A stretch of 64,000 bases of DNA, taken from NCBI RefSeq assembly GCF_018736065.1, contig NZ_CP076129.1:1178001-1242000 (forward strand). Direction: 5' to 3'. This document shows positions 20,144 to 46,148 of the stretch, piece by piece. Numbering within the stretch: the stretch's first letter is position 1; each line of letters begins with the position of its first letter. The notes below the pieces were generated by a model. It was not told where the DNA came from. It ran no database searches and was given only the letters and a program-made list of their open reading frames with translations. The DNA comes from Flammeovirga kamogawensis. GTDB lineage: Bacteria > Bacteroidota > Bacteroidia > Cytophagales > Flammeovirgaceae. The position numbers and the translations under genes are program-made.

Positions 20144-20171
20144 ATTAGGCACATCAATTGGAGTGCCTAAT
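20144..20171 (+). other. Intergenic hairpin between GH3 and esterase genes
   Basis: A perfect 9-bp inverted repeat, ATTAGGCAC / GTGCCTAAT, with a 10-base loop, 23 nt before the esterase ATG at 20194. No T-run follows, so it is not a classical terminator. It could be an RNA processing or attenuation element within the operon. Confidence 0.4.
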
Positions 20172-20193
20172 TCCAACTTTAATCAACATTGAA

Positions 20194-22519: not shown

Positions 22520-22540
22520 TTTTTTAATAAATTGAAAAGT

Positions 22541-23957: not shown

Positions 23958-25370
23958 ATGAAGAATCTAGTAAAAACAGTGATGATATTGATGGCCTTTT
24001 TACCTTCAATTCTTACTGCTCAAGATAAGCCAAACATCATCTTAATTACAATAGATGATTTAAGACCAGAGTTAGGCGTTTATGGAAATACATTGATTCA
24101 AACTCCTCAAATTGATGCATTAAGCGAACATGCAACTACATTTAATAATGCTTTTTGCCAAGTGCCAGTTTGTGGAGCCTCAAGAGCATCTATGCATACA
24201 GGAGTTCGTCCAACGCCTAAAAGATTTACGTCTGCAGGAACAGAAATTGATCATGACCTGCCAAATGCAGTAACAATTGGTCAGCATTTTAAAGAAAACG
24301 GATACTATACTTTTTCAATTGGTAAAGTAATTCATGGTAAAAAAGATGCTGTAGAACGTACATGGACGGAGTATCTTCCTGCAGAAAGTATGTTCGAATA
24401 CCACGATAAAGCATTAGTAGAAGAAGCCACAAACCCTGTAGCTCCTTACAAAAGACCACAACCTTATGAGGTGGTAGTAGATAGTAAAGACACAGATTTC
24501 TTAGACGGAAGATCGGTTAAAGTTGCAAAAGAAAGATTGGCTGAACTGAAAAAGAAGGACCAACCATTTTTTATGGCAGTAGGCATTGCACGTCCTCACC
24601 TTCCATTTGTAGCACCAAAACGTTTTTGGGATTTATACAACGAAAATGATATCCCAATGGCGGACAATCCATACAAACCTAAGAATATGCCAGAGATGGC
24701 AAAAACAACGTATGGTGAGTTAAGAGCATATAATTCTGTTCCTAAAAAAGGGGATGTACCAAATGATTTAGCTAAGAAACTAAAGCATGGATATTATGCT
24801 TCTGTAAGTTTTTCAGATTATTTAGTAGGTGATCTTGTGGCTGAATTAAAAAAACAAGGTCTTTATGAAAATTCTATTATTGTAATTTGGGGAGACCATG
24901 GTTGGCAATTAGGAGAGCATTCTTTTTGGGCAAAACATACAAACTTTGATATTGCTTTAAGAGTACCGTTAATAATTAAACCTCAAAAAGGAAAAAACAT
25001 GAAGGCTGCAAAGGCAGATGGTTTTGCAGAAATTGTAGATATATTTCCAACTTTATGTGACTTGGCAGGGTTAGAGGGACCTTCACAATTACAAGGTCAG
25101 AGCTTAGTACCCGTTTTAAAAGATCCTAATTTCTCTACAAAAGAATATGCTTTAAGTAGATGGAAACAAGGGGATAGTATTCGTACAAAAGGCTTTAGAT
25201 ATACTGCTTTTAAAAACAAAAAGGGAGTATTAATTGCTGAAATGATGTATGATTTATCAAATGATCCTGAAGAAAATAAAAACATTGTAGAAGATGCCAC
25301 TTATAAAGGAGAGGTTGAAAAACATAGAAAACTTCTTGATAAGGCACTAAAGGAATATAGCTTAATTTAG
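23958..25370 (+). CDS. Iduronate-2-sulfatase-like S1 sulfatase with CGASR motif
   Basis: A 470-residue exported sulfatase (signal peptide ending SILTAQ). It is of the same subtype as the sulfatase domains in both fusion enzymes: ITIDDLRPELGVYG, GVRP, ARPHLPFVAP, WGDHGWQLGEH and VDIFPTLCDLAGL. The modification motif reads CGASR (Cys72), with Ala where most sulfatases have Pro; C-x-[P/A]-x-R is accepted by known maturation systems, so activity is still expected. It is the last gene of the plus-strand operon, one base after the previous stop and followed by a terminator. Confidence 0.94.
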   Translation: MKNLVKTVMILMAFLPSILTAQDKPNIILITIDDLRPELGVYGNTLIQTPQIDALSEHATTFNNAFCQVPVCGASRASMHTGVRPTPKRFTSAGTEIDHDLPNAVTIGQHFKENGYYTFSIGKVIHGKKDAVERTWTEYLPAESMFEYHDKALVEEATNPVAPYKRPQPYEVVVDSKDTDFLDGRSVKVAKERLAELKKKDQPFFMAVGIARPHLPFVAPKRFWDLYNENDIPMADNPYKPKNMPEMAKTTYGELRAYNSVPKKGDVPNDLAKKLKHGYYASVSFSDYLVGDLVAELKKQGLYENSIIVIWGDHGWQLGEHSFWAKHTNFDIALRVPLIIKPQKGKNMKAAKADGFAEIVDIFPTLCDLAGLEGPSQLQGQSLVPVLKDPNFSTKEYALSRWKQGDSIRTKGFRYTAFKNKKGVLIAEMMYDLSNDPEENKNIVEDATYKGEVEKHRKLLDKALKEYSLI

Positions 25371-25514: not shown

Positions 25515-26450
25515 ATGAAAAAGATATTTATTATAGCAGCATTAGCCTTTACAGTTATTTCTTGTAATGATAAGAAAGATCCTGAACCGGAAGTGAAAGA
25601 AGAAGTTAAAATTGAAAAATTAGCTGACGATAAAAAAAATAATAAAGAAGAAGATAAAAAGAAAGGTAATACAGATTCTGTAAAACCTGCAAGTAAGCAA
25701 GTTACATCTTCACCAAAAAATAACACAAAGAAGCCTGTTACCAAACCAGCTTCTTCAACACCAAAAAATAAAACTACTACAGTTAAAAAGGCAACGAAAA
25801 TAGTAAAAGTTCAACCTAAGCCAAAATCAACTACACCAGTAATAAATAATCCAAAATCTGGATCAAAAAGTAATCCTGTATTAGGTGGTAATTCTTCAAA
25901 TTCATCATCTACAAATCCTTATAATGTTGAAAGAGAGATGGTAAGCTCTTCAGGTAAGAAACATATTATTTGGGGTACTTCTTCTGTTACTAAATCAGAT
26001 TTAGATCAATATGAAAAATTAGAAGCTGATTATATGGTTAAATTAAGTGTTCATAATGATAAAAAAGCAGTTTTACCTGGTTTGGAAATATCTTTAAATA
26101 ATCAGTTAAGAAAAATTCAAATAATTGAAGATAATAAGAAAACGATGTTTGATGCTGTAGTTGTTAGTGAAGGTTATATGAATGATTATCAATCTAAAGC
26201 AAATAAAGAAACTAATCCAAATAGTAAGCAAAATTTACTTAAGTTTGCTAATCTTCATAAGCAAAGATTAGCTGAACGTAAAGGTAGATTACAAACAATA
26301 GAATCAAAGCTAGCAGATGCTTTAGTTGAGAAAGCTAAACTAGAACAAAAATATAATTCAGCTTTACAGGAATTTAAACAAGCAGAATCAGTATTTTTTG
26401 CAGCAGGTACACTTCTAGAAGATGCAGCAAGAGTACATCATATAAAATAA
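25515..26450 (+). CDS. Lipoprotein with Lys/Pro/Ser-rich linker and coiled coil
   Basis: A 311-residue lipoprotein: lipobox TVISC with Cys17, then NDKKDPEPE, an acidic start that fits surface export in Bacteroidota. Residues ~20-130 are a low-complexity Lys/Glu then Ser/Thr/Pro/Lys linker. Residues ~150-311 are helical with heptad-like spacing (RLAERKGRLQTIESKLADA). No enzyme motif is present. It may be a wall- or surface-spanning tether, which is a guess. Its start and upstream sequence resemble those of the small lipoprotein at 27581: both have a GAACCAAAA stretch about 15-20 nt before the ATG. Confidence 0.75.
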   Translation: MKKIFIIAALAFTVISCNDKKDPEPEVKEEVKIEKLADDKKNNKEEDKKKGNTDSVKPASKQVTSSPKNNTKKPVTKPASSTPKNKTTTVKKATKIVKVQPKPKSTTPVINNPKSGSKSNPVLGGNSSNSSSTNPYNVEREMVSSSGKKHIIWGTSSVTKSDLDQYEKLEADYMVKLSVHNDKKAVLPGLEISLNNQLRKIQIIEDNKKTMFDAVVVSEGYMNDYQSKANKETNPNSKQNLLKFANLHKQRLAERKGRLQTIESKLADALVEKAKLEQKYNSALQEFKQAESVFFAAGTLLEDAARVHHIK

Positions 26451-28079: not shown

Positions 28080-31000
28080 ATGATTATGAAATTAATTACT
28101 ACCTCTTTAATTGTATTTTTTTCGCTACTACAATTTATAGCAACAGCACAGGATAACTTAATTACAAATCCTGGTTTTGAAACTGACTTTACTGCAAATT
28201 GGGAAGTGACATCAAAAAATACAGAATTTACACCTTCTACTGTTACACATATATTTAATGGAACAAATGCATTACAAATGGTTTTGCCAGATGATAATCC
28301 TTCTTTACCGAATGCGCAACTTAGATCAATTGGATATGCATCTTTTACAACTCCATTAACTGAAGCTACTACTTTTAGTATTAGTGTAGATGCTTATGCA
28401 GATAAAGACATGACGGTAAGATTTATGTTGCAGTCTGAAAAAGCAGGTATAAAAGAATTAAGCTCTAACTTATCTGTATCTACAAATAATCAGACATTAA
28501 CTACTACAATTACACTTACTCCAACAGAAGCGTTACCTTCTTTATCAGATTGGCAACTACTATTACAAATGGGAGGAAATACAGGTACTCTGGTAGTAGA
28601 CAATATTTCTTTAGTACAGGAAGCTGAAAAAACAGATGAAGAATTAGCTCAGGAAGCAATCGATGCAATCGCAATTAATTTTAATAGTATCGATCCTCAA
28701 GATGGAAATGGTATTCTATATTCAATCACTTTACCAACAGAAGGAGAGCATGCATCGACAATTAATTGGGCATCTTCTAACGAAAATAGTATTGCTACAG
28801 ATGGTAAAGTAATGCGAGGAGCTGCTTTAGAAGAGGTGACAATGACAGCAACTGTAACAATTGGAACTACTACTTTAACAAAAGACTTTGTGATTACTGT
28901 ATTACCATTAACTGTTGAGGGTGGAAATATGATTGTATCAAATGCTAATTTTAATGATGGATTAACGGCTTGGAGTGCTGCATTTAATACTGATCAAGTA
29001 AATGAAGGTGATTTTACTTTTACAAGTATCACGCATAAAGAAAATGGCTCTTTGGCAGCTCAATTTGATATTACAAATGGAGGAGTCACTTTTGCTAACC
29101 TTGTGACAAGAACAGTTTATTATCCTTTTAATGAAACAACAACAGTTCCTGTTTTCTACGAAATTACATCTGATATTTATGCCTCTGAAGAAGCAAAACT
29201 TCGTTATCAGTTTTCTGGTAAAGATATTGAGAATGTAAGCCAGAATATAAACACAGATTTCTTTTTTGTTGGTGAAGAAGTAGAAACAATTACTAAAATT
29301 ATAGAAGCTCCGGCTGACTTAGTTTCTTGGAGGTTACTATTACAAGTAGGTGGAAATACAGGTCAGATTGTTTATGATAATGTGATTGTGAAAGAAATAG
29401 AGACAAATGTAGGGCAAGTAACACTTACAAAAGAAGCCTTGAAATTAGTTTTAGCAGATGGTGATGATGTAGACAATGTTACTCAAAACTTCACCGTAGA
29501 TATTACAGATACAAATAATTATGGGACAACAATAACATGGGAAGCAGATAATGATGTTGTTTCTTTTGATGGTGCAAACGCAACTTTATTGCCTAGTTCT
29601 ACAGATCAGATAGTAAAACTAAAAGCTACCATAGAAAAAGAGGGTTTTACTGAAGTAAGAAACTTTACAGTTACAGTTTTAGCTACAGATGAACAGAAAT
29701 TAATTGATGCTACAGCGGCCCTAGAAATTGAATTTGCAGAAGGTGATACAGAAGCATTGATCACTACAAATGTAACATTACCTTTAGAAAGCTTATTTGA
29801 GACTACAGTAACTTGGCAAAGCGAAAATGCAAATATTTCTACAGAAGGTGTCGTCAGTTTAACTTCAGAAGAAGTAACAGGAAAACTAACGGCAACAGTT
29901 ACTCTAGGGGAATTAACACAGACAAAGGAGTTTGAATTAACTACAGATAGAAATAATGAAGCAAAAGTAGAAGAAGCTAAAACAAGCATTGCAATTACTT
30001 TTGCAGAAGAGGAAACGGCTGATAATGTGACATCAAATTTAGAATTACCAACAACTGGATTAAATAATACAACAGTAACTTGGGAGGCTAATAATGAAGC
30101 AATTTCTTCGGACGGAACGGTAACTAGAGCAAGTACAGACCAAGAAGTTGAGCTAACTGCAACAATTTCTTTAGGTGAAGTTTTTACCACTACAACATTT
30201 ATTGTAACTGTTTTAGGAGATGATGCAATTGCTTTAACAGAAGCAAAAGATGCTTTAGAAATTGTTTATGCAGAAGGTGAATCTGCAAGCAATGTTGTCT
30301 CAGATATTACTTTAGCAGCAACAGGTTTTCACAATGCTACAATTACATGGACGAGTACTCATGAAGAAGTAATTACTACATCAGGTACAGTTTCAAGGCA
30401 ACAATTATCTACAGATGTAGTAGTAGAAGCAACTCTAGTTATTGGAGATTTATCAGCAACAAAATCATTTACTTTAACTGTGATTTCTAATGAGCAAGAA
30501 CTAGTAAACGAAGCAAAAGAAACTTTAGAGATTACTTATGCAGAAGGAGATAATGCAAGTACTGTAACTAAGAATATTACGCTAACAAACACCGCGGATA
30601 ACAATACAACAGTAACTTGGGTATCTGATAATGAAACGGTAATTACAGCTACCGGAGAGGTTACAATACCTTTATCAGATAAAGATGTTATGCTTACGGC
30701 TACTCTTACATTAGGAGAATCTACAGCAACTAAAACATTTACTGTTAAGGTGATAGGTAATGCAGTAGTGTTATTATCAGAAGCAAAAGAAGCTTTAGTA
30801 ATTACTTATGCCGATGGCGAAGATGCTACTACAGTCACTCAAAATATTACTTTGGTTGACGAAGGAGAAAATAATGCGACAGTTACATGGTCTTCATCAA
30901 ATGAAGAAGTGATTTCTACATCTGGGGTAGTAACACAATCGTTTGCAGATCAAATGATTGATTTGACGGCTACACTTCTGCTTGGTGATGAAACTACAAC

Positions 31001-31283
31001 TAAAGTTTTTTCTGTAACAGTAATGAAAACAGAAGCACCAACGGCAGTAGAAGATACTAAAGTAGCAGTGAAAGTTTGGCCTAATCCATCGCAAGATAAA
31101 ATTAATATCACTTCGGAAACACCTATTAAAACGTTGCAAATTTACAACCTAACAGGACAGTTAGTGTATGTACTTCCAACAGCTTTAATAGGGAACACCA
31201 CACAAGTAGATATTTCTGGTTTGACAAACGGTAATTATATTCTTCGTGTAAACGGAGGACATAAAACTTTTATCAAGCAATAA
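28080..31283 (+). CDS. Secreted multidomain CBM/aBig repeat protein with T9SS sorting domain
   Basis: A 1067-residue protein with no catalytic domain that I can find. In order: signal peptide; a CBM-like jelly-roll (about 25-190, NLITNPGFETDFTANW); one atrophied bacterial Ig (aBig) domain; a second CBM-like domain (about 280-440); six more aBig repeats (about 445-985, each with a pattern of TVTWxSxN, a G-V turn and LTAT-xxxG); and a C-terminal T9SS type A sorting domain (VWPNPSQDKINI ... GNYILRVNG). It is predicted to be surface-attached or released and to bind glycan. The CBM, aBig and sorting domains match those at the C-terminus of the GH5-sulfatase encoded next, so it reads as a non-catalytic companion. 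Two in-frame ATGs (28080, 28086) are both possible. Confidence 0.85.
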   Translation: MIMKLITTSLIVFFSLLQFIATAQDNLITNPGFETDFTANWEVTSKNTEFTPSTVTHIFNGTNALQMVLPDDNPSLPNAQLRSIGYASFTTPLTEATTFSISVDAYADKDMTVRFMLQSEKAGIKELSSNLSVSTNNQTLTTTITLTPTEALPSLSDWQLLLQMGGNTGTLVVDNISLVQEAEKTDEELAQEAIDAIAINFNSIDPQDGNGILYSITLPTEGEHASTINWASSNENSIATDGKVMRGAALEEVTMTATVTIGTTTLTKDFVITVLPLTVEGGNMIVSNANFNDGLTAWSAAFNTDQVNEGDFTFTSITHKENGSLAAQFDITNGGVTFANLVTRTVYYPFNETTTVPVFYEITSDIYASEEAKLRYQFSGKDIENVSQNINTDFFFVGEEVETITKIIEAPADLVSWRLLLQVGGNTGQIVYDNVIVKEIETNVGQVTLTKEALKLVLADGDDVDNVTQNFTVDITDTNNYGTTITWEADNDVVSFDGANATLLPSSTDQIVKLKATIEKEGFTEVRNFTVTVLATDEQKLIDATAALEIEFAEGDTEALITTNVTLPLESLFETTVTWQSENANISTEGVVSLTSEEVTGKLTATVTLGELTQTKEFELTTDRNNEAKVEEAKTSIAITFAEEETADNVTSNLELPTTGLNNTTVTWEANNEAISSDGTVTRASTDQEVELTATISLGEVFTTTTFIVTVLGDDAIALTEAKDALEIVYAEGESASNVVSDITLAATGFHNATITWTSTHEEVITTSGTVSRQQLSTDVVVEATLVIGDLSATKSFTLTVISNEQELVNEAKETLEITYAEGDNASTVTKNITLTNTADNNTTVTWVSDNETVITATGEVTIPLSDKDVMLTATLTLGESTATKTFTVKVIGNAVVLLSEAKEALVITYADGEDATTVTQNITLVDEGENNATVTWSSSNEEVISTSGVVTQSFADQMIDLTATLLLGDETTTKVFSVTVMKTEAPTAVEDTKVAVKVWPNPSQDKINITSETPIKTLQIYNLTGQLVYVLPTALIGNTTQVDISGLTNGNYILRVNGGHKTFIKQ

Positions 31284-31393: not shown

Positions 31394-34300
31394 ATGAGAA
31401 AATTACTACTAACGATTTTTTTACAATTACTAATTGGAGGACTTGTTAAAGCACAGTCTCCAGCGCACGAAATGGCCAACCGTTTAGGAACGGGATATAA
31501 CTTTGGCAATGTAATGTCTGCAAATAATGAAGGTGATTGGGCAGCTCCAATTGAGGAATATATGATGGAAGATGTGGCAAACGCTGGCTTCGATCATATC
31601 CGTTTACCTGTACGTTGGGGCAGTCATACCGATGAAAATGCACCTTATACAATAGATCCCGCTTGGCTTACAAGGGTGGAACAAGTGGTAGATTGGGCAT
31701 TAGAACGCAATTTAATTGTGGTTTTAAATGCACATGGAGAACATTGGTTTATAGAAGAAGTACACAAAGAAGATAACGAATATCCTGACCCTGAAAAATG
31801 GGAAAGAATGGTGAAAATCTGGGAGCAAATAGGTTCCCATTTTAAAGGCAAATCTCATGATGTGGTTTTTGAACTTCTAAATGAGCCGTACTTTAATATG
31901 AATAAAAAGTTAGTAGATGAAATTAATATTGATTTGCTTGCTGCGGTTAGAAAAGAACACCCAGATAGAATTGTAATGCTTACAGGTGGTGGTGATAATG
32001 CTATTCATGCACCTCAGCAAATGGACCTTTCTATTTTTGAAAATGACAATAAGATTATCCCTTGGTTTCATTATTATTGGCCAAACACGTTTTCTAAGTA
32101 CCCTGAAATAAATGGAAGTTCTCCAATTTGGGGGACAAAAGAAGAATACGCGTCTTTATACGCTGATTTTAAAAATGTGAAGGATTGGGCTGATACAAAC
32201 AATTTACCGTTGTATTTAGGAGAGTTTGGGTCGAATTCTGTTTGTGATGCAAAAAGCAGAGAGCGTTATCATAAAGCAATAATTGAGACATCCGAAGCAT
32301 TAGATTTTCCAAGAGCAATATGGTGTGCTGGTCCTAAATCAAATAAAATGATTTACACACGTAACCAAGGAGAATGGGTAGATGGACAGCTGGAAGCATT
32401 GTTTCCATCATCTAAAAGAAAAAATATACTCTTCTTAGTGGTAGACGACCTGAATACAGACTTGGTGGCATTTAATAACTCAGAAGTACAAACACCGGTG
32501 ATAGATAAATTGGCAGAAGAAGGTATAAAGTACCTAAATGCACAATGTTCTTACCCTGTTTGTGGTCCATCGAGAGCAAGTTTTTTAACGGGCACTTATC
32601 CAGAAAGAAATGGAGTAACCAACCTATCTAATTTACTTCCTGATATTGCTCCAGATTTAACTACACTACCAGAATTATTATCAAAAAATGGCTATAGAAC
32701 GGCTGCTGTTGGGAAAGTTTTTGACCCTAGAAATGTGGATGACGGTCATTATAATGCCGCTTGGACAGAAGATTACACAGCGCCATCAAAATATATTTAT
32801 CCAGAAGAATACGGTGATTTTGTGGGTGGAAATAGTTACAGAGTAACGGATGGCACTTCTTATGAAATCGGCCCGGAAGGAGTAGGAGATGATGGTTACC
32901 AAGATGGTCAGTTTTCTGAACATGCTGTGGCTACTTTAGAAGAATTAGGAGCATCTAGTCAGCCTTTCTTTTTGGCTGTGGGCTTTAAGAAACCTCACTT
33001 ACCGTTTGTAGCACCTAAAAAATATTTTGATTTATATGATAGAAATACATTAACGTTAGCTGATTATCAAACTTTACCCCAAGGAGCACCCTCTTTTATA
33101 TACAAAGAGCCAACAGAACTTACAGGTTATAATGATATTCCACAAACCTGGGAAGCAATTTATAACGGTCATGAAAACGTACTCGATCCAGAAAAACAAA
33201 GAGAATTATTGCATGCTTACTATGCTTGTGCATCTTACATCGACGCGCAGATTGGTAAGGTAATTACTAAATTAGAAGAGATTGGAGAAAAGGAAAACAC
33301 GTTAATTATTTTGATTTCAGATCATGGTTTTAATCTGGGAGATCATAATATGTGGGGTAAACATAACTTACTTCAAAATGCAGTACAAGTGCCAATGATT
33401 GTGATAGACCCAGCTAAAGCACTAAAAAATGAAAAGGACAGAGCAGTACAATTAGTAGACCTCTACCCAACAGTTTGTGATTACACGAGTACGCCAAAAC
33501 CGAGTTTTCTACAAGGTAATTCGCTTTATATAGCAGACGATACAGAAACAAATTACCCATTAGATTTAGCCGTTACTTTTTATAAAAAAAATGGAAGCAA
33601 CGGGTATACATTTAAACAAGGAAAGTACCGTTATACCATGTGGACTTCTGATAAAACAATGACACCAATGGAGCAGCCTTTCTCTGTTGTAACTACTATT
33701 GAAGAAGAGTTTTATGTGTATCAGAATAATCAGGAAATAGAAACAGAAAATGTAATAAATAAGGCTGCCTACTCAAAAGAAATAGCCGTATTAAAAGAAG
33801 CTGCAGAAAAGTGGTGGACCGCTTATTACGGTCAGGTACATAATTTAGAATCTACCAATCTTATACGTATCAATAGTAATTTTGAAGAAGGAGTTTTAAC
33901 AGGTTGGACATCAACTTTTAAGAGTGGTAGTACTATTGATTATGATTTTGTAAGTGAAAATCATCCTGTAAATGGTACTAAAGCTGGGGTTTTTCATATT
34001 AGAGAAACAGGTACAAATGTGTCTAATATTGGTTTACGCTCTAATGAATATGCAATAGGTTATACAACAAATGAAATTGAAGATTTTGAAGTTGCTTTTG
34101 ATATTTATACCACCACAGCTACTACAATAAGGTATCAATTACAATTTGATGGCAATACAGAAAAAGTGATTAGTGATAATATTGAAATAGAGGCAGGGAA
34201 GGATATAAAAATAAATACAAAACACGAAGTTCCCATTGGCGTGTCATCTGTAAGAATATTATTTCAGTTAGGTACTGCAACAGAACGTGTTTATTTTGAT

Positions 34301-35137
34301 AATGTAAGTATAAAAATTGATGGTTTAGAGAATGATAAAGAGCTTTTGAAAGAAGCAGTTGATAACCTAGAAATCATTTATCAGGGAGAGGATTCTAAAA
34401 ATGCAGTAAGTAATAATTTAATTTTACCACAGGAGAGCACTAACGCTACAACCGTTACATGGGTAAGTGATACGCCAAATGCTGTACTTGTGCAGAATGA
34501 CACAGGTTATGTATTCTTAAATGAAGAGGCGATAACAGTAAAATTAACCGCAACAATCACCTTAAAAAATCTTACAGAAGTAAAAGAATTTGTAGTGAAA
34601 TTAAATCCAAATGTATCTCCAGAAATGATTGCAGCATTGGACAACCTTGAAATTCAATATTCTTATGGAGATAATGCAGAAAATGTTACAAAAGACATCT
34701 ACGTTAGTGGCACTTCTTTAACAGCTAAAGTGGATTGGGTTTCTAATAATTCTGGTGTCACATTTTCCGATTTTACTGGTGTCGTATCGCAGGTAACTGA
34801 AGATGTTCAGGGTACTATAGAAGCACGTTTATCAATAGGTAACGAGAAAGCAATTAAACTCTTTTTATTGAATGTTAAAGCAAAAGAAGAAACTCCAACA
34901 ACTACATTACCAAGTTTTGAAAACCCGGTTTTATATCCAAACCCTACTTCGTCATTATTATACATCAAAGGGATAATAAAACAAGGAGCTACTGCTAGTT
35001 TATATTCTTTAGAAGGCAAGAAATTAGGAGAATATTCTCTAGCGATAAATGGAGCTAGAATTGATCTATCTTCCATGAAGAAAGGAATTTACCTCCTTTT
35101 AATAGAAGGGAAATCATATAAAATTATAAGAAAATAA
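31394..35137 (+). CDS. GH5-sulfatase fusion enzyme with CBM, aBig repeats and T9SS domain
   Basis: A 1247-residue secreted enzyme. After the signal peptide (ending LVKAQ), residues ~22-338 are a GH5 cellulase-type barrel: GYNFGNVM, HIRLPVRW, acid/base Glu164 in LLNEP, nucleophile Glu277 in YLGEFGS. Only a few residues later, ~342-810 are an iduronate-2-sulfatase-like S1 sulfatase: VVDDLNTD, formylglycine motif CGPSR with Cys390, ISDHGFNLGDH. Residues ~822-990 are a CBM-like jelly-roll, ~990-1165 two aBig repeats, and the last ~75 a T9SS sorting domain (LYPNPTSSLLYIKG). Both active sites look intact. GH5 is broad (beta-glucan, mannan, xylan). The T9SS tail puts it at the surface or outside the cell, where it could start breakdown of a sulfated polysaccharide. 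Confidence 0.93.
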   Translation: MRKLLLTIFLQLLIGGLVKAQSPAHEMANRLGTGYNFGNVMSANNEGDWAAPIEEYMMEDVANAGFDHIRLPVRWGSHTDENAPYTIDPAWLTRVEQVVDWALERNLIVVLNAHGEHWFIEEVHKEDNEYPDPEKWERMVKIWEQIGSHFKGKSHDVVFELLNEPYFNMNKKLVDEINIDLLAAVRKEHPDRIVMLTGGGDNAIHAPQQMDLSIFENDNKIIPWFHYYWPNTFSKYPEINGSSPIWGTKEEYASLYADFKNVKDWADTNNLPLYLGEFGSNSVCDAKSRERYHKAIIETSEALDFPRAIWCAGPKSNKMIYTRNQGEWVDGQLEALFPSSKRKNILFLVVDDLNTDLVAFNNSEVQTPVIDKLAEEGIKYLNAQCSYPVCGPSRASFLTGTYPERNGVTNLSNLLPDIAPDLTTLPELLSKNGYRTAAVGKVFDPRNVDDGHYNAAWTEDYTAPSKYIYPEEYGDFVGGNSYRVTDGTSYEIGPEGVGDDGYQDGQFSEHAVATLEELGASSQPFFLAVGFKKPHLPFVAPKKYFDLYDRNTLTLADYQTLPQGAPSFIYKEPTELTGYNDIPQTWEAIYNGHENVLDPEKQRELLHAYYACASYIDAQIGKVITKLEEIGEKENTLIILISDHGFNLGDHNMWGKHNLLQNAVQVPMIVIDPAKALKNEKDRAVQLVDLYPTVCDYTSTPKPSFLQGNSLYIADDTETNYPLDLAVTFYKKNGSNGYTFKQGKYRYTMWTSDKTMTPMEQPFSVVTTIEEEFYVYQNNQEIETENVINKAAYSKEIAVLKEAAEKWWTAYYGQVHNLESTNLIRINSNFEEGVLTGWTSTFKSGSTIDYDFVSENHPVNGTKAGVFHIRETGTNVSNIGLRSNEYAIGYTTNEIEDFEVAFDIYTTTATTIRYQLQFDGNTEKVISDNIEIEAGKDIKINTKHEVPIGVSSVRILFQLGTATERVYFDNVSIKIDGLENDKELLKEAVDNLEIIYQGEDSKNAVSNNLILPQESTNATTVTWVSDTPNAVLVQNDTGYVFLNEEAITVKLTATITLKNLTEVKEFVVKLNPNVSPEMIAALDNLEIQYSYGDNAENVTKDIYVSGTSLTAKVDWVSNNSGVTFSDFTGVVSQVTEDVQGTIEARLSIGNEKAIKLFLLNVKAKEETPTTTLPSFENPVLYPNPTSSLLYIKGIIKQGATASLYSLEGKKLGEYSLAINGARIDLSSMKKGIYLLLIEGKSYKIIRK

Positions 35138-35247: not shown

Positions 35248-35901
35248 ATGAAAGCTATAATATCCTCAATTACCATTACACTACTATTACTTGTAAATAC
35301 AACTTATGCACAGCAATACCGTACGGTGGAAAAAGAAGTAAAGTATTACGTTAAATGGTTTGAGAACATTGTTCCTTTAACAGCAACGCAACACGATAAA
35401 ATGATTGCGGTGAGAACAGAATATGTAAAAGAATTGAGAACATGGAAAGCTAAGAAGTACACAGAACACCACGAAAAGCTTACCATTGATAAAAGATATT
35501 GGAAAAACAGAGACAAAGTTTTAAGTGAGACACAAGTAATTACACTTAGAACCTACCTGACGACTAAGCACGAAGTAGATCAATTGGATGATATTATACA
35601 TTTTTCGGAAGTTCAAAAAGAAGAGTTCTTCAATAAAATTTTGCCAATAAACAGAAACCTAGTTATGGCAAGTAATGAGTTTGGTATATACAATGCATCT
35701 TACTTAGCTATTGAAGAAGAGAGCATGTCTCAAAAAGATAAGTTAAAAGCAGCAATGTTTACTGCAAAACAACAACACGATTATATACTTCATAAATCAT
35801 CATATGAGAAGAAAGTGAAAGGATTCACAGATGCTTATTCAAAAAATGAACTTGAAGAAACCGAAACTTATAATCTTCTAGAACCCACAATCAACAAATA
35901 G
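35248..35901 (+). CDS. Exported helical protein of unknown function
   Basis: A 217-residue protein with a signal peptide (ending NTTYAQ). The mature part is mostly helical and rich in Lys, Glu, Tyr and Trp, with three similar-looking segments of 'LTATQHDKMIAVRTEYVKE', 'LSETQVITLRTYLTTK' and 'FSEVQKEEFFNKILP' type. These resemble the helix pairs of Spy/CpxP-like or Bacteroidota 'helical periplasmic' proteins, but I cannot name a family. It lies 110 nt after the GH5-sulfatase gene, and its own strong terminator follows immediately before the first island repeat. It is the last gene before the defence island. Confidence 0.7.
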   Translation: MKAIISSITITLLLLVNTTYAQQYRTVEKEVKYYVKWFENIVPLTATQHDKMIAVRTEYVKELRTWKAKKYTEHHEKLTIDKRYWKNRDKVLSETQVITLRTYLTTKHEVDQLDDIIHFSEVQKEEFFNKILPINRNLVMASNEFGIYNASYLAIEEESMSQKDKLKAAMFTAKQQHDYILHKSSYEKKVKGFTDAYSKNELEETETYNLLEPTINK

Positions 35902-36220: not shown

Positions 36221-37582
36221 TTACATTAATGAATTAGATAACTCCGTAATCAGTTCATTCCTCAACCCAGAAAATAAAGTTTCCAACTCTACATTTCCCT
36301 TAAAAGCCATACTCATAACCTCATTACTTAAAAAAGGAATTTGATAGGCATGTATATCAATTTTTTTACCATCTCCCCATTCATCTTCGATAGTTAGGTG
36401 AGCTATTTTTTCTTGATAATTGTTTATCGTATTGGGATAGAAGAGAATGATTTCATCTACTTTAAAACGAATGGCATAGGCAAGCATTTGATATAAATCT
36501 GTTTGTGAAATACCCTTTTTAGGATCTGATTCATCTGTATAGACAATTTTATATTTTGTATCTGCAATGTAGTTTTTTGTTCCTGTTTTTATAAGAAGGT
36601 CTGGTTTTAGATTAAACGTGTTTTTTGTATCTAAGTACTTGTCTGAGACTTGTGCTTTGGCAGTTATTTCTTCCAGTTCCTTTTCAATAAAACCAAAAAT
36701 AAAATCTTCAAATACGTACTCCATTGGTAGGAGGAAAGCGAATAGTTTCAATTCATTTTTATAGCTAAATGAAATGGCATTACTCAAGAATAACTGACAG
36801 TAATCTCTTACTGTAGTAAACTCCTCAAAAACGGGATTAAATGATATAGTAGCACATTGAGAAGCGGTAGCTTGCTCATCCGATACTTCATCTAAAAAGA
36901 ATAATATCTCTCTAAGGTACTTTTTGTTATCGCTGTTTTGCGTAACAGTGAAAAGTAGATTTGCCACATACTTAATGATACGATTAAACTTATTATCCAT
37001 CACAAAAGCATCGTAGGAGCAATTTAGTTTATGCCAATTTCCCTTTGATAGATTTTGACGGATATATTCATTCGTATTAAGTCTGCCTTTGATATGATTT
37101 AATTCACTACTTTGCTCTTCATAATTTTGATAGATAGAAGTAGCGAGTAGTTTACGCGTATACTTTGCAAATAGATAGATTAGTACTTCAAAGAAATCAC
37201 TTTTCACATCACCCAAAGTAGTTTGATAGCTTGGAAACTTTATCTTCCTACAATAGCTTAGCCACCATAAAATGTGGTTTTGCATTTGACCTACTTCATC
37301 TTTAGAATACTCTTTACCTTGCTTGTAAAATACTTTAGGCAATAAGTTGATAGTATGTCCTTCAAACTGAACTACACCTACGTATTTATTAGATTTTAAT
37401 TCATTGGTTTTATGTAGTGTCTGAATGAAACGCTGTGTTTCTATTGCTTTAGATTCACCTTTTTCATTATACCAGGAATTCACTTCTCTATTTACCCAGA
37501 TTTCATCTAAAAATAAATCTAGACTTTCTAAATCAATGTCATCAGCAACTACTTTATTTTGATATTCAAATAGATTAATCAT
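36221..37582 (-). CDS. mcrC: McrC-family nuclease subunit
   Basis: A 453-residue McrC-type protein. The N-terminal half matches the McrB-binding region (KYVGVVQFEGHTINLLPKVF, then the helical stretch with LKGRLNT-like NHIKGRLNT). The C-terminal PD-(D/E)xK nuclease core is seen as LKPDLLIKTG and YIADTKYKIV around residues 325-345. McrBC cuts DNA with modified cytosines, using McrB as the NTP-driven motor. The first 8 nt overlap the end of mcrB, so the pair is translationally coupled. It is the last gene of the minus-strand defence operon. Confidence 0.93.
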   Translation of the reverse strand: MINLFEYQNKVVADDIDLESLDLFLDEIWVNREVNSWYNEKGESKAIETQRFIQTLHKTNELKSNKYVGVVQFEGHTINLLPKVFYKQGKEYSKDEVGQMQNHILWWLSYCRKIKFPSYQTTLGDVKSDFFEVLIYLFAKYTRKLLATSIYQNYEEQSSELNHIKGRLNTNEYIRQNLSKGNWHKLNCSYDAFVMDNKFNRIIKYVANLLFTVTQNSDNKKYLREILFFLDEVSDEQATASQCATISFNPVFEEFTTVRDYCQLFLSNAISFSYKNELKLFAFLLPMEYVFEDFIFGFIEKELEEITAKAQVSDKYLDTKNTFNLKPDLLIKTGTKNYIADTKYKIVYTDESDPKKGISQTDLYQMLAYAIRFKVDEIILFYPNTINNYQEKIAHLTIEDEWGDGKKIDIHAYQIPFLSNEVMSMAFKGNVELETLFSGLRNELITELSNSLM

Positions 37583-40295
37583 TGAATCCTTCCACTTTTA
37601 ATGGCCAAGAAGTTTTGTCAACTTTAAAACCTGCATAACCTAATATACTTTTTACATCTTTTTCATCATTGAGGAAATATTCTAAAAGAAGAGGAATTAC
37701 CTTATTATTGATGGTCTTGAATAAATCAAAGTTTTTATCCATAAAGTAGGAGTGCCCAATTTGAAAGTCATGCCCTTTCATTGAGATAATCTTATCATTG
37801 ATTTTTTGAAGAATTTCAGCATAATGCATTCCTTCTAAATCATATTGAGGATACAAGGATTCAAACTCAAAACGTCTTCTTAAAGCAATGTCTAATAAAG
37901 CAATTGATTTATCAGCTGTATTCATTGTGCCGATTATATAAAGGTTAGATGGCACTGTAAACTCATCGCCTGAAGGTAGTGTAGTGGTTAATGCTAAATC
38001 ACCTCCATAACGCTTATCGGGTTCAATAAGGGTTATTAATTCTCCAAAAACTCTAGAAATATTAGCTCTGTTGATCTCATCAATTATGATAACATAGTTT
38101 TTCTTTTCTACTTTTTCTTGTACTCCAGACTTACCAATTTTTAATAACTCCTCTAAAAGTGGTGTGTAATAGGTAGATAATCCTTGAATCCCCATTGTTG
38201 ATTCAGCAGAATACATTTTTCTTAATGATTCAATACTCAGTGTATGTGCTGTTCCTCCACTTGCTTTCCTAAATCCAATAGATTTATTACCTATTTCAGT
38301 AATGAAATAAGAAACCTTTTTCATTTGAATCTCTATTTCTTCAACTTCACCCTCTAAAAGTGGTTGAAAGAATTCTTGGAAAACTTCTTCGTAAGGTTTT
38401 TTACTAACTTTAAATTCTTTCGCATCTTTTAAATTAGACAACGCTTTATCTGCAATCGCCTTAAAAATACCATCTTTCTTCTCAAAAGAAAGTTGATCTC
38501 CTTTATCTGTATCAGGTCTTAAACCTTGAATAAAGTCTTCGTAACTATAGTTTTGATGGAAGGTGATAAATTCTATTTGATTTCCTCTATGTTCATTAAA
38601 TATCTTTTTAGCTTCCATATAATCTGTAATTTCGTAACCAGCTATAATTGAAGCAGCTTTTGATATTGTAGAGTAGGTTTTTCCTGTACCTGGAGGGCCG
38701 TAAAGAATAGAGTTTAGAGGGTAGTTTATTTCCACTTTTTTGTCTGTTTTTTCTGAAGTTATATTTTCTATTACACCAAATGCTTCCATTAATACTTCAT
38801 TTCTGAAATCTTTATCAAAAATGTATTTTTCAAATTCTTTTGAATTGGATTTACTATAACCTGTTTTTGATGTTCTCTCTAACTCAGATTTAGCATTTGT
38901 GATTATATTATCAAGTTGCTCCTTATAATTCTGATTATCTTCTAAAAAGTAGAACCAAGTATCCTTATCGGGTTCTTTTTGTTTATCAATGTACCCTTTA
39001 TTCCAACCGAATTTTCTTTTGTCGAGAACAGCGATATAACATTGTCCAATACTGAAACCTAGTTTATTTTTACTTTTAGGTAAGTTGAAAAAGAACCTTT
39101 CATCTCCTTGTTCTAATGCTAGAGTATTAATAACCGTATCAATGGTTTGGGTTAGATCAAAGATATTTTCTTTACCGATTTCTTTGAAGAGAGGTACGAG
39201 CAATGAAGTAGCTTTATTTATTCTCATACTTTTCAAGACTTCATATTCTTTTTTAGTAGAAGAGAAATTTGACCCTTGTGAACCCCCTTTAAATTTATCA
39301 AATACTTTATGTTTTGTTAAATCAGATTTTAATATAGGATTATCTACAAAGCTATACTCTATTGTAATATCAGCTTTAGAGGTTGCTTTAGATTCTTTTT
39401 TCCATAAATGCTCATCCGAAGAGGGTTTATAATCATAAGGTTTTGATGTCACTTCAGCTAGTGCATAGCAACCAGATTTATTTCCTGTTACCCACAAAAT
39501 AACTTTATCTCCCTCTTTTATTTTATCCTTGTGAGCAGTAACAGTCCAATTATCAAGAATTTTTTCTCTTAATGATCTTTCGATATCAAAAACAGACGGA
39601 TTACCTTGAAACACCCAATAGTTAACTTTATTATTTTCTTGTCCCCATAGCCAAGCATCATATGATATTTTATAAAATGACTCGTTTGTTTTAGATTGGA
39701 CTTTTTCTAAAACTTGGTTATACTCATCAAAAGTATTGAAGTTAGTATTGATATTTAAAACTTTCTCTAAATAGGGTTTTACAGGTCCGTTAATCGGGAA
39801 GTACTTTTCAGGATTTACGTAGAACAATACTTCCGTCAATTTGGTTTTACCAACATTTTTAATGTTTAGAATATCTTTAAAATTCTCATTATTTATATTT
39901 CCATCTAATACATCAAAAAAGAAATCCCAGAGTCTATTAATTTCATTATTTACCCTTTCTTTCTTATAAACAAATAGCCAAACTTTTTGAGCATTAGAAG
40001 TAGGTAAACCTGATACATCAGTTATATTTTCATCAAATTTCAAATGATTTGATAACCTTTGTATTAGATCAAGCCTATTTTTATCTCCATACTTATTCAA
40101 ATAGGCTAAAAAAGTAAAAGGGTCAATTTCATTCATTGGAAATTGAGTATCACTTTCATCAATATCATTTAATGCATCAACACCTAATAACCTTAAGATT
40201 TCAATTAATGACTCTTGTTTTTCTCTTTTTGTACTTAAAAAGGAGATGATCTTTTTGTAAGTATTTAACCAGGTAAATTGAAGGGTATTTGTCAT
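37575..40295 (-). CDS. mcrB: McrB-like AAA+ GTPase with EVE domain
   Basis: A 906-residue protein. Residues ~1-215 are a helical region that I do not recognise (it contains GKTKLTEVLFYVNPEKYFP, a motif seen in some restriction ATPases). Residues ~222-350 are an EVE (PUA-like) domain: NYWVFQGNPSVFD, then KEGDKVILWVTG, which fits reading of modified bases. The C-terminal AAA+ motor has Walker A GPPGTGKT (near 532), IIIDEINRANISRVFGEL, and the McrB signature IGTMNTADKSIALLD followed by ALRRRFEF. EVE-McrB fusions are known in other bacteria. Together with McrC it should restrict DNA carrying modified cytosine. Confidence 0.93.
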   Translation of the reverse strand: MTNTLQFTWLNTYKKIISFLSTKREKQESLIEILRLLGVDALNDIDESDTQFPMNEIDPFTFLAYLNKYGDKNRLDLIQRLSNHLKFDENITDVSGLPTSNAQKVWLFVYKKERVNNEINRLWDFFFDVLDGNINNENFKDILNIKNVGKTKLTEVLFYVNPEKYFPINGPVKPYLEKVLNINTNFNTFDEYNQVLEKVQSKTNESFYKISYDAWLWGQENNKVNYWVFQGNPSVFDIERSLREKILDNWTVTAHKDKIKEGDKVILWVTGNKSGCYALAEVTSKPYDYKPSSDEHLWKKESKATSKADITIEYSFVDNPILKSDLTKHKVFDKFKGGSQGSNFSSTKKEYEVLKSMRINKATSLLVPLFKEIGKENIFDLTQTIDTVINTLALEQGDERFFFNLPKSKNKLGFSIGQCYIAVLDKRKFGWNKGYIDKQKEPDKDTWFYFLEDNQNYKEQLDNIITNAKSELERTSKTGYSKSNSKEFEKYIFDKDFRNEVLMEAFGVIENITSEKTDKKVEINYPLNSILYGPPGTGKTYSTISKAASIIAGYEITDYMEAKKIFNEHRGNQIEFITFHQNYSYEDFIQGLRPDTDKGDQLSFEKKDGIFKAIADKALSNLKDAKEFKVSKKPYEEVFQEFFQPLLEGEVEEIEIQMKKVSYFITEIGNKSIGFRKASGGTAHTLSIESLRKMYSAESTMGIQGLSTYYTPLLEELLKIGKSGVQEKVEKKNYVIIIDEINRANISRVFGELITLIEPDKRYGGDLALTTTLPSGDEFTVPSNLYIIGTMNTADKSIALLDIALRRRFEFESLYPQYDLEGMHYAEILQKINDKIISMKGHDFQIGHSYFMDKNFDLFKTINNKVIPLLLEYFLNDEKDVKSILGYAGFKVDKTSWPLKVEGFND

Positions 40296-40329
40296 ATAAA
40301 ATATAAGTAAAGGAATTTCTTTAGTCAGT

Positions 40330-40530
40330 TTAATTATTATCTTTTTCTTTCTTGCCTATTTCATACATACGAATTATTGAGAACATACTAATTCCACCAA
40401 ATATAGCCGATGGTATGGCAAAATCTTCAGCAAATGAGCCTCGACGAAAAGAACCAACAACCATTATAAAGGTTATAAAAATACATAGTCCAATAAGGAA
40501 ATAAATGAATTTTTTCTGTTTGTTTTTCAT
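40330..40530 (-). CDS. Small two-helix membrane protein
   Basis: A 66-residue protein with two predicted membrane helices (FIYFLIGLCIFITFIMVV and IPSAIFGGISMFSIIRM) joined by a short charged loop, and a Lys-rich C-terminus. It sits in the 270-nt gap between hsdR and mcrB on the same strand, so it is probably part of the operon. I recognise no family. Small membrane proteins in defence operons can be effectors, but nothing in this sequence shows that. Confidence 0.6.
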   Translation of the reverse strand: MKNKQKKFIYFLIGLCIFITFIMVVGSFRRGSFAEDFAIPSAIFGGISMFSIIRMYEIGKKEKDNN

Positions 40531-40564
40531 AATTAACCAGTTTTTAAATTAAAAATAGTACTTT

Positions 40565-43420
40565 CTAAAACCCACTAAGAAAAGTCTCCACAAACCCCAC
40601 CATTTTATCCGTAACTCTCTGTGCTAGTTTCTTACGTTGCAATAGTTTAGGTCTGGTCTCAAATGTTTCTATAACATCCGATTGTATAGGGGTTCTATTG
40701 GTAAAGAGGTAATCGCTGATGACTTTTTCTGTAATATCAGCTTTTAGTTTCTCTTCATTTACGAGTTTGGTAAATGCATTTTGCTTTTCTACTTCTATAA
40801 ATTTATCAAATTCATCTGTCACCTCTTCGCTATCTTTGATGTGAGGTAAGTTTTGATCAATAAATTTTTCTATCAATTCTTTCTTGCTTCTTAGTTGTAC
40901 TTCACTAGATAAAGTGTCGATGATAGATTTTTTCTGACCTTCTTTTTTTGCTCCATCTGGAGTTTCACAAATTTGTGCTAGAAGGGTTAAAATGTAAGCG
41001 ACATTGACTTCATCTCTATGGATAAGTTCTAACTCAAAATCTACATCATCCAGAATAGATGTTTTATCTGTGCCTCTATCGTTCTTAACCTTGTCATTTA
41101 TATCCAAGTACTTACTTTTATAGTCTTCGTAAGCTTGTGCGGGGAGATCCAAATCATCTTCTTTATAATCAGCAAAACCATGAAGAATATGTTTGATACG
41201 CATTAGATTTCTAAATGCTTTTACAAAAGCAAGCTGCTCATCCTCTCTTATAATATCATCTACACTTTCTACTGTTGGTGCTAGATAAAGAAGCTTTTCT
41301 AATGCTTCATGGAATTTATCTAAATGTTGCTCATAAGGTTCTATTAGTATAACTTCTTTTGCATCTTTATTAGAAAAGAGAAGAATGGCATCGTCTGTGT
41401 TCTTCTTTAGGTTTCTGAAACAAACAATATTTCCATGCGATTTTTTCTCGTCTAAGATTCTATTGGTACGTGAAAATGCTTGGATTAAGCCATGGTATTG
41501 AAGGTTTTTATCGACATATAAGGTATTCAATAGCTTACTATCAAAACCTGTCAAAAACATATTCACAACCAAAAGAATATCAATTTCCTTGTTTTTGACT
41601 TTCTTGGCGATGTCGTTGTAATAGTTATAAAACGACTTAGAATCTTTGGTAGAGTAGCTTGTGCCAAACATTTTGTTGTAGTCGGCAATATATTTATCAA
41701 GAATTTCTCTACTGTGTAAGTTACCGTAAGTGGCTTGTGGTTCAGCGGCTATTGCTCCTTCAAACTCACCAAAAGCACCATTCGCATCCTTATCGTCTTC
41801 ATTGGCTTTGTAGCTAAAAATGGTTGCGACTTTTAGTTGATGTTCTCCAGCTTCTTTTTTCTTTTGGAGGATATCGTAATACTTGATTAATGTATCTACA
41901 CTACTCACACACATCATACCTGTAAAGGTTTTGCTGTGTGTTTTTCTTTCGTGATTATTGATGATATAATCAGCAATTTTTGTCAGTCGTTTTTCTGATT
42001 CTAACAGCTCTTTGGTGTCAATATCTTCTACTAAATTATCTGTATCGATATCCAATTCATTGTTAGAATTTTTCTGCTTGTAACGCCCTACGTATTCTAT
42101 AGCAAAGCGTAAAACATTTTGATCTTTAATCGCATCTGTAATGACATATTTATGCAAACATTCATCAAATAAATCTTTGGTAGTACGCTTTCCTAAATCA
42201 TTTTTTGCAGAATTATCTGCAAAAATAGGTGTACCCGTAAAACCAAACAGCTGCTTATTTTGAAAGAAGTTAGTAATGGCTTTATGCGTATCTCCAAACT
42301 GAGAACGATGGCACTCGTCAAAAATAAATACAATACGCTTATCCACTAAATTTCCCATTCTCGATTGATAGCGAGCTCCATTAATGGCTGTATTCAGTTT
42401 CTGAATAGTTGTTACAATCAATTTGGTATCATCGGTAAACTGTTTTACCAACTTATTGGTATTGTCTGTGCCATCTACACTACCATCAGAAAAGTGGTTG
42501 AACTCTTTAGTAGTTTGATAATCCAAATCTCTTCTATCTACTACAAAAACCACTTTGTGGACTTCGGGAATTTCCATCATAATCTGAGAAGCCTTGAAAG
42601 ATGTTAATGTCTTCCCTGATCCCGTCGTATGCCATATATAGCCGTTCTTCACACCCTTTTTTACTCTATCAGCAATGGCTTCCGTAGCGTAATACTGATA
42701 AGGACGAAGCACCATTAATATCTTATCCGATTCATGCAGAACAATGTATTTGGTGATCATCTTGGAGAGATGACATAGCTCTAAGAAAGCATCCGCAAAC
42801 TTGGTAAGTTCTGTAATGTTTCTATTCTCTTTGTCCGCCCAGAAAAACGTCTGCTTAAAAGACTGCTTACGGTTATTGGCGTAATACTTTGTATTGACAC
42901 CGTTGGAAATCACAAACAATTGGATATAATTGAACAATGCTTGCCCTGCACCATAAGAATGACGTTGATAACGGTTGGTTTGGTTAAATGCTTCTTTCAG
43001 CTCCAATCCTCTACGCTTCAATTCCACTTGTACCAACGGTAAACCATTAATCAAAAGTGTGACATCATACCTATTTTTATAACTTCCTTCCATAGTGATC
43101 TGTTGTGCCACTTGGAATTCATTTTTACACCACTGCTTCTGATTGATAAATTCTATATATTCACTGCTTCCATCGTCCTTATTGATCTGCATTTTATCTC
43201 GCAAAATCTTTGCTTTCTCAAATACAGAACCTTTGTTTAAGTGGTTCAAGACCTGCTTAAACTCGGCATCGGAGAAGGAAGTGTTGTTATGCTTTGCTAG
43301 TTGGCTTTTCAGATTAGACAGTAAGGCAGTTTCATCAGATAATTTTACTTGATCGTAGCCTAGTTGTTGAAGTTGTTGTACTAGGTTGTTTTCTAGGATT
43401 TGTTCTGGTTGGGTAGTCAT
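40565..43420 (-). CDS. hsdR: Type I restriction enzyme R subunit (HsdR)
   Basis: A 951-residue R subunit, normal in length. The N-terminal nuclease region has [21 protein letters not shown] (PD-(D/E)xK type). The SF2 motor has HTTGSGKT (Walker A, near residue 267), [10 protein letters not shown] (near 367), the TGTPIF motif, and [10 protein letters not shown] late in the helicase core. It cuts DNA after translocation when the HsdMS complex meets unmethylated sites. Its start codon overlaps the stop of the DnaJ-domain gene (ATGA), so expression of the two is coupled. Confidence 0.97.
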
Positions 43421-44085: not shown

Positions 44086-44096
44086 CTGTTTCAATG

Positions 44097-44270
44097 TTAT
44101 TTCAACCTTATCAATTTCTCACCATTTTCGTCACTGAATGGTCTTCGGTTGTATTTCGTCTCAAAGTCATCAACATCAAGTTTATCAAAACAACCTATGT
44201 TTATACTATGCTTCTCATGGAAAAGTAACCAATATTCTTCATACCCTTCTATTTTTGAATTAAAATCCTG
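44097..44270 (-). pseudogene. Possible remnant of a gene lacking its start
   Basis: Between the DnaJ gene and the next upstream gene the minus strand has a 57-codon open stretch with protein-like composition (segments EGYEEYWLLFHEKHS and IGCFDKLDVDDFETKYN) ending at a stop at 44097-44099. Two in-frame stops lie just upstream (44271-44273 and 44277-44279), and there is no ATG, GTG or TTG near its beginning. It could be the tail of a decayed gene within the operon, or chance. I recognise no family. Confidence 0.35.
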
Positions 44271-44310
44271 CTAATCTTAAAGTCCTACTTAATCCTGGTG
44301 TAAAGGTTGT

Positions 44311-44805: not shown

Positions 44806-44822
44806 GCCTTTCTTTTATTTTT

Positions 44823-46145: not shown

Positions 46146-46148
46146 GGC

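Follow-up and report, generated by a model that had tools for sequence, protein, structure and literature searches.

Enzymes that combine a glycoside hydrolase (GH) with a sulfatase are already known. Here, we describe a fusion of a GH5 domain with an S1 family sulfatase, from a stretch of 64,000 nucleotides of the Flammeovirga kamogawensis genome (NZ_CP076129.1, positions 1,178,001 to 1,242,000 of the forward strand; hereafter, "the window"). The fusion is conserved across the genus, and its GH5 domain belongs to a clade whose unfused members are regularly encoded near sulfatases.

Three described systems are the closest in architecture. First, P36 from the ulvan locus of Formosa agariphila joins GH78 to S1_25, and both halves are reported to be active (PMC8511951, PMC8360166). 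Like our fusion, P36 holds a GH and an S1 sulfatase in one protein of a locus from a marine Bacteroidota. However, P36 pairs a rhamnosidase with S1_25 for ulvan, and its halves are described as acting in consecutive steps on the same oligosaccharide, whereas the fusion pairs GH5 with an S1_7-like domain, for a putative sulfated xylan, and action on one substrate is only proposed. Second, sulfatase-GH10 proteins are described for polysaccharide utilization loci (PULs) that putatively target sulfated xylans (PMC6794258). These come from the same type of locus and also have a sulfatase and a xylanase-type hydrolase in one chain, but the sulfatase comes first and is of another clade, the hydrolase is of another family, and there is no match to the sorting tail of the type IX secretion system (T9SS). 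Third, CelAly from the marine flavobacterium Aquimarina sp. 2-A2 has a GH5 domain, a second catalytic domain, and accessory binding modules; its second domain, however, is an alginate lyase of polysaccharide lyase family 31 (PL31), its GH5 is from subfamily 2, and it is described as acting on two different polymers (PMC13235733).

Each half also has relatives of known structure. FA22070 (6hhm), an S1_7 ulvan sulfatase, is the best solved sequence match of the fused sulfatase, but the title of the entry names no GH domain, and FA22070 is part of ulvan degradation. CtCel5E and TmCel5A (GH5_25 for the latter, according to PMC3526467) are the closest solved relatives of the GH5 domain; CtCel5E, 6kdd, and FnCel5A differ from the fusion in carrying HH instead of HG in the N-x-H-H motif, and the matched chains have no sulfatase domain.

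The fusion protein

The initial annotation proposed a GH5-first, sulfatase-second fusion with a carbohydrate-binding module (CBM), aBig domains, and a T9SS tail. This architecture stands, and the gene is a single uninterrupted open reading frame (ORF). Its parts, in order, are as follows (aa, amino acids):

31394 to 35137, plus strand: GH5-sulfatase fusion gene, start to stop codon (ATG start, 1247 aa)
31394 to 31453, plus strand: putative signal peptide, aa 1-20, judged by eye from the hydrophobic N terminus
31454 to 32383, plus strand: GH5 catalytic domain, HG-type clade, approximately aa 21-330
31883 to 31885, plus strand: codon for Glu164, the GH5 acid/base, in N163-E164-P (NEP)
32222 to 32224, plus strand: codon for Glu277, the GH5 nucleophile, in G-E277-F-G (GEFG)
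32420 to 33829, plus strand: S1 formylglycine sulfatase domain, S1_7/iduronate-2-sulfatase-like, approximately aa 343-812 (end approximate)
32561 to 32563, plus strand: codon for Cys390, the formylglycine site, in C390-GPSR
33845 to 34333, plus strand: CBM4/9/16/22-like module, aa 818-980
34352 to 34900, plus strand: two aBig_2 domains, approximately aa 987-1168 (outer limit approximate)
34931 to 35134, plus strand: T9SS type A sorting tail, aa 1180-1247

Pfam identified the GH5 domain (Cellulase, aa 43-316, E = 1.2e-41), the sulfatase (aa 343-698, E = 2.7e-48), and two stretches of aBig_2 (E = 2.2e-21, the best at 987-1070). The TIM-barrel match and the two catalytic glutamates (NEP and GEFG) place the first domain in GH5. 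Similarity to solved GH5 enzymes stops at 328-338 in the closest matches and similarity to sulfatases begins at 341, so the linker between the catalytic domains must be very short. The C-terminal tail scored above the cut-off in both Pfam (Por_Secre_tail, PF18962, aa 1180-1247, E = 1.5e-8, 35.2 bits versus a cut-off of 27) and NCBIfam (TIGR04183, 35.8 bits versus 23), as expected for type A cargo of the T9SS, and the protein is thus predicted to be secreted.

The CBM was recognized by its fold. Pfam's CBM_4_9 model was below the cut-off for aa 818-980 of the window copy (E = 0.37), but when matches with E up to 1 were listed, it was found in eight of nine fusion copies (best E = 5.4e-4). An AlphaFold model of this stretch is a confident beta-sandwich (predicted local distance difference test [pLDDT] of 82.6, predicted template modeling score [pTM] of 0.80). 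Its best fold match by Foldseek was a CBM4 (3p6b, E = 1.3e-9), and it aligned to CBM4-2 of the Rhodothermus xylanase (2y6j) with Z = 15.6 and a root mean square deviation of 2.7 over 149 aligned residues. More broadly, the CBM4 modules of CelK, CbhA, and the Rhodothermus xylanase matched best, with CBM22 and CBM16 close behind. The modeled PF02018-type beta-sandwich places the module in the CBM4/9/16/22 group, and it is predicted to bind a carbohydrate ligand.

Conservation in Flammeovirga

The fusion is present near full length in all eight other Flammeovirga genomes (G001-G008, 56-92% identity), and all nine genomes searched keep the GH5-sulfatase joint. Five of the eight match L023-L027 (F. 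aprica JL-4, OC4, EKP202, F. pacifica WPAGA1, and SJP92), with the last 300 residues identical. An assembly or frameshift artefact is ruled out because the joint is free of stop codons in all eight. Two genomes have a second copy (G003, L022, 1555 aa; G008, L021, 1553 aa); these branch apart from the first copies in the sulfatase tree, and the one from G003 has CBM_4_9 matches in three stretches. The initial annotation considered Glu164, Glu277, and Cys390 to be intact, and we find the same residues in all 11 aligned copies (the window, the eight other genomes, and the two second copies); every copy examined is one ORF. Neither of the findings that the annotation named as refuting it, loss of catalytic residues or separately made parts, is therefore seen.

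Both catalytic halves are under purifying selection. We used a Nei-Gojobori script on five pairs, most of them saturated at synonymous sites, to compute the ratio of nonsynonymous to synonymous substitution rates (dN/dS), which was 0.03-0.06 for the GH5 domain (five pairs) and 0.03-0.07 for the sulfatase (the four computable pairs). For the least saturated pair (the window and L011), dN/dS was 0.049 for GH5 and 0.069 for the sulfatase and was higher outside the catalytic parts: 0.138 for the CBM, 0.123 for the aBig domains, and 0.166 for the tail.

The GH5 domain and its HG-type clade

The closest solved relatives of the GH5 domain are endoglucanases (Clostridium thermocellum endoglucanase H/CtCel5E, 6kdd, FnCel5A, and TmCel5A), with fold matches to CtCel5E (5byw, 31% identity, Z = 25.3) and 3mmu (Z = 24.8). 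TmCel5A, whose structure 3MMW is given as the representative of GH5_25 (PMC3526467), is among the best sequence matches; yet the fusion domain lies in its own supported clade, and all 11 fusion copies have HG, not HH, in the motif.

Among 25 homologues from the phylum plus the paralogue from the same genome, HG occurs in only one row, from the genome G172. There, the HG-type GH5 is a separate gene (C1:1207856-1209763, 635 aa, with a T9SS tail) in a locus that also encodes a hybrid two-component regulator (HTCS), SusC/D, two GH10s, seven sulfatases, and a GH3 with 57% identity to that of the window. A search of 299 genomes from the family of G172 identified 15 with such a GH5 (G172 included), always with HG. 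Of these unfused HG-type GH5 genes, 14 of the 15 have a sulfatase within 10 kb (the remaining one is at a contig end) versus 1 of 20 HH-type control loci (P = 9e-8, Fisher test); for GH10, the counts are 12 of 15 versus 0 of 20 (P = 5e-7). Two of the control loci are on short contigs (6.5 and 5.1 kb).

The tree of GH5 domains has 13 HG rows and 7 fusion rows on one side of a branch (97/90) and 20 HH rows on the other; it holds 7 of the 11 fusion copies and omits G763 and G982, which are cut by contig ends. Close to the domain's end, the fusion rows and the 13 HG rows that reach far enough also share a loop with two more residues than in the HH rows; it mostly resembles NKTIY. When 11 of the 15 unfused HG proteins were scanned with Pfam, 10 had a T9SS tail and 2 matched CBM_4_9. 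The HH-type paralogue from the same genome, on the other hand, lies in a 20-kb stretch with a GH3-like gene, an HTCS-like gene, and another GH5, but with no sulfatase match. (In L130, at G000 C1:4567028-4569388, a 1101-aa ORF with two tandem GH5 domains lies beside the HH-type GH5 paralogue.)

Overall, the fusion's GH5 is no stray cellulase that a sulfatase picked up: its clade is a regular, mostly T9SS-tailed member of such loci. The initial annotation suggested selection for joined activities; the conservation across the genus, the low dN/dS of both halves, and the unfused counterparts of both hydrolases (GH5 and GH10) in similar loci support this view.

The sulfatase domain

The C-x-P-S-R motif and the conserved active-site residues assign the second domain to the S1 formylglycine sulfatases: D351, D352, R394, K441, H535, D643, H644, and K656, which we take to be the active-site residues, do not vary across the nine rows of alignment A1 (numbering +20). 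The best solved sequence match is 6hhm (E = 1.7e-69; 33% identity over 417 aligned residues, Z = 32.3), titled a family S1_7 ulvan-specific sulfatase from Formosa agariphila. The other closest solved structure is human iduronate-2-sulfatase; S1_7 is listed as containing iduronate-2-sulfatase as well as a kappa-carrageenan sulfatase (PMC5066984). We call the domain S1_7-like because these are its best sequence and fold matches, that is, by comparison to the nearest structures and not to SulfAtlas models. Those S1_25 and S1_7 members that take part in ulvan degradation are described as exolytic rhamnose and xylose sulfatases (PMC8360166).

Cys390 is presumably matured to formylglycine. No radical-SAM sulfatase maturase in the genome matched above the model's cut-off; the family of the formylglycine-generating enzyme (FGE) had seven matches, with true FGE and other members taken together.

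The locus contains a second fusion with the order reversed, as the initial annotation stated: a sulfatase followed by GH10. Were the two fusions independent, as was also proposed? In a tree of 42 sulfatase domains, including 8 of the 11 fusion copies, three clades are separate: that of the fused domain (100/100), that of the sulfatase-GH10 domains (100/100), and that of S_c, another sulfatase of the locus (100/100). Sulfatases from other bacteria group on the side of sulfatase-GH10 and S_c (88/91, which is not among the best supported branches). Since their sulfatase domains form separate clades, the two fusions took different sulfatases, and with different hydrolase families and the reversed order, the claim of independence is supported. 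The tree does not support a single origin for the sulfatase halves of the two fusions.

Of the five loci annotated around close relatives of this sulfatase, four (G396, G028, G057, and L028; not L029) also have a GH10 on their contig. Across 73 sulfatases in 14 unfused HG loci, there was no clear counterpart of the fused sulfatase.

Search for other GH5-sulfatase fusions

No GH5-sulfatase fusion was found outside Flammeovirga in overlapping samples of 395, 325 (among the matches listed), 299, and 123 genomes; Planctomycetota, Verrucomicrobiota, and metagenomes are covered only via L028 and L029. In 395 genomes of the phylum, 26 matched the GH5 domain (E ≤ 1e-40, at most 5 candidates scored per genome), and no frame outside the source genome was longer than 678 aa. 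Searching 325 genomes of the class with Pfam's PF00150 (at most 7 scored per genome) gave, among the matches listed, 8 frames of more than 780 aa outside the source genome, none with a sulfatase match by BLAST. The largest frame with an HG-type GH5 in the 15 matching genomes, of 299 from another family, was 696 aa, which is too short to add a sulfatase. At the order level (123 genomes), all 6 matches were Flammeovirga. In the search that gave the eight other Flammeovirga copies, 2 of 49 genomes outside the genus matched the fusion at E ≤ 1e-80, in the sulfatase part only. Searches with the sulfatase domain and with the sulfatase-GH10 protein are weak negatives (4 and 2 candidates scored per genome).

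A GH5-sulfatase fusion was also not found in the open-licence papers searched, mainly at the level of titles and the beginnings of abstracts. Thus, a GH5 joined to an S1_7-like sulfatase is new within the samples searched, while GH-sulfatase enzymes and this type of locus are known. Only the GH5 fusion is new because a sulfatase-containing GH10 has been described for putative sulfated-xylan PULs (PMC6794258).

The utilization locus

One utilization locus occupies the left half of the window, and the fusion is a distal gene of it. The other genes are:

3849 to 7736, minus strand: HTCS
7854 to 9698, minus strand: 614-aa protein with a He_PIG match, probably a surface glycan-binding protein
9712 to 12474, minus strand: sulfatase-GH10 fusion, 920 aa, sulfatase first, no T9SS tail match
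12497 to 14047, minus strand: SusD-like
14049 to 17213, minus strand: SusC-like
17698 to 20076, plus strand: GH3; top NCBIfam model is beta-xylosidase (574 bits, below the cut-off of 1350)
20158 to 21123, plus strand: BD-FAE/alpha-beta-hydrolase esterase
21116 to 22519, plus strand: sulfatase S_a, nearest solved structure the S1_16 kappa-carrageenan sulfatase 9fo1
22532 to 23956, plus strand: sulfatase S_b, 63% identical to S_a
23958 to 25370, plus strand: sulfatase S_c, nearest solved structure 6hhm
28080 to 31283, plus strand: non-catalytic surface-type protein with CBM4/9-like modules, seven aBig_2 stretches, and a T9SS tail
35248 to 35901, plus strand: 217-aa protein, no Pfam family (best E = 0.036)

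Sulfatase-GH10, GH3, and two further sulfatases are given as the pattern of PULs putatively for sulfated xylans (PMC6794258, section 18). Our locus fits this pattern, with three additional sulfatases instead of two, so its type and its GH10 fusion were already known. The best solved match of that GH10 is the beta-xylanase 7d88 (E = 1.1e-32), and the signal-peptide-like start and lack of a T9SS tail match suggest that the sulfatase-GH10 protein is periplasmic. It is in the same locus in all six of the eight other Flammeovirga genomes that have long enough contigs. Elsewhere, sulfatase and GH10 are separate genes (G172 and others), one ORF of 858-878 aa (G763, G876, and G760), or one ORF of 1193 aa with CBM_4_9 between them (G057). 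In L029 (7934-10777), from a metagenome-assembled genome of Verrucomicrobiales, an S_a-like sulfatase and one like that of sulfatase-GH10 are in one 947-aa ORF.

The CBM/aBig protein, the fusion, and the 217-aa protein occur together in all eight other genomes (the first is cut by the contig end in two). Uncut copies of the CBM/aBig protein vary from 889 to 1788 aa across genomes, as for a surface binder of variable repeat number. The 217-aa protein directly follows the fusion in all eight (25-88% identity), and relatives of it also occur elsewhere in the examined stretches of G007 and G008. Its sequence appears helix-rich on inspection, with segments of LTxxQ type; it could conceivably be a chaperone or a T9SS helper.

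Between the locus genes, there are also a minus-strand Chalcone_3 gene and a lipoprotein-like gene of 311 aa with a long low-complexity stretch (25515-26450). The latter was the best match of no ORF of at least 150 aa in the examined stretches of the eight other genomes. Beside the locus is a defence-like island (36221-49621) with McrC, an McrB-like AAA protein with an EVE domain, a caspase-domain protein, and HsdR, HsdS, and HsdM, whose genes are interrupted by one for a DnaJ-domain protein; in G002, the opposite flank of the locus carries a gene of 741 aa that has a caspase-like match. Farther on, 59433-62306 encodes a GH13 amylase that has three stretches of CBM26 and carries a T9SS tail whose score only just exceeds the Pfam cut-off.

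Proposed role

The fusion probably works as a bifunctional enzyme of a sulfated-xylan utilization locus, exported by the T9SS and either bound to the surface or secreted. We infer its substrate, location, and order of action as follows. The CBM, whose modeled fold resembles xylan- and glucan-binding CBM4 and CBM22, would hold the fusion on the polymer, and the GH5 domain, from a clade found with such loci, would cut the xylan backbone at the surface as an endo-enzyme. The tethered S1_7-like sulfatase would take sulfate off xylose on the same chain. By analogy, the exolytic habit of the characterized ulvan S1_7 favours removal of sulfate after the cut, from the new end, over removal before it, to open the site. 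The resulting oligosaccharides would pass through SusC/D into the periplasm, where sulfatase-GH10, GH3, the esterase, and the other sulfatases would finish the degradation. Parts of this pathway are joined in two ways (GH5-sulfatase and sulfatase-GH10), which, as a classical sign, suggests that they act together. The initial annotation suggested assays on algal sulfated polysaccharides; we narrow the likely substrate to sulfated xylan.

A further-reaching version is possible, although we hold it only tentatively: the HG-type clade may be an undescribed GH5 subfamily that is specific for sulfated algal xylan and is the missing surface endo-enzyme, and the Flammeovirga version may have gained an S1_7-like sulfatase to become a self-contained desulfating endo-xylanase.

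Several points weigh against these proposals. Specificity of the HG-type GH5 for xylan is a prediction for every member of the clade, the nearest solved GH5 enzymes are endoglucanases, and GH5_25 members are reported to act on mannan as well (PMC3526467). The characterized ulvan S1_7 is described as exolytic (PMC8360166), which suits an endo-acting partner only after a cut. Just 1 of the 73 sulfatases in the 14 unfused loci has the fused sulfatase as its best reference from the window. Because the controls and the test loci represent different taxa, habitat may explain some of the difference between them. Finally, the model of GH5 and sulfatase together was poor (pLDDT of 64.2, pTM of 0.57), so we used it for fold matches alone and leave the geometry of the two active sites aside.

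We considered three alternatives. First, the fusion might act on two polymers: GH5 would cut a neutral beta-glucan or cellulose while the sulfatase acts on another sulfated polymer that is meshed with it, and the fusion would loosen a mixed wall. CelAly sets a precedent, as a flavobacterial GH5_2-PL31 protein reported to degrade cellulose and alginate (PMC13235733). Also, CtCel5E and FnCel5A, among the nearest solved GH5 enzymes, are endoglucanases, and the top Foldseek matches of the CBM are CBM4 modules of cellulases. However, the HG-type GH5 sequences form a clade of their own, 14 of its 15 unfused members have a sulfatase nearby, and it is the HH-type paralogue of the same genome that lies in a stretch with no sulfatase match. 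We consider this explanation unlikely, but it is the strongest of the three.

Second, the architecture and logic might be the same but with another sulfated backbone, such as a mannan, an ulvan-like xylorhamnan, or another hemicellulose. GH5_25 members can be mannanases (PMC3526467), S1_7 is poly-specific (the two enzymes listed in it by PMC5066984 act on different substrates, and 6hhm is titled ulvan-specific), the closest solved structure to S_a is a carrageenan sulfatase of S1_16, and some related loci contain GH29-type fucosidases. This seems somewhat less probable still: GH10 is found in both types of loci, the GH3 scores best with a beta-xylosidase model, and no ulvan lyase, GH78, GH92, or GH26 was among the Pfam matches of the 17 window proteins scanned.

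Third, it is very improbable that one half is catalytically silent or that the joint is a neutral, surviving accident: genes for multidomain sulfatases that often include GH domains are reported to be frequent in two Planctomycetes genomes (PMC4807772), but here the three key residues are kept in all 11 copies, dN/dS is low in both halves, and the joint is kept in all nine genomes of the genus that were searched.

Sulfated xylans are reported to be among the predicted main targets of marine Bacteroidetes in algal blooms (PMC6794258), and the loci assigned to them so far are predictions. If our proposal is correct, then the fused protein could serve as a ready tool to desulfate and cut algal xylan in one step. 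An HG-type GH5 clade that has T9SS tails and tracks these loci, together with its natural fusion to one sulfatase, gives two enzymes to prioritize and suggests a shared chain as their target. Of all parts of the system, the HG-type GH5 clade most merits laboratory attention.

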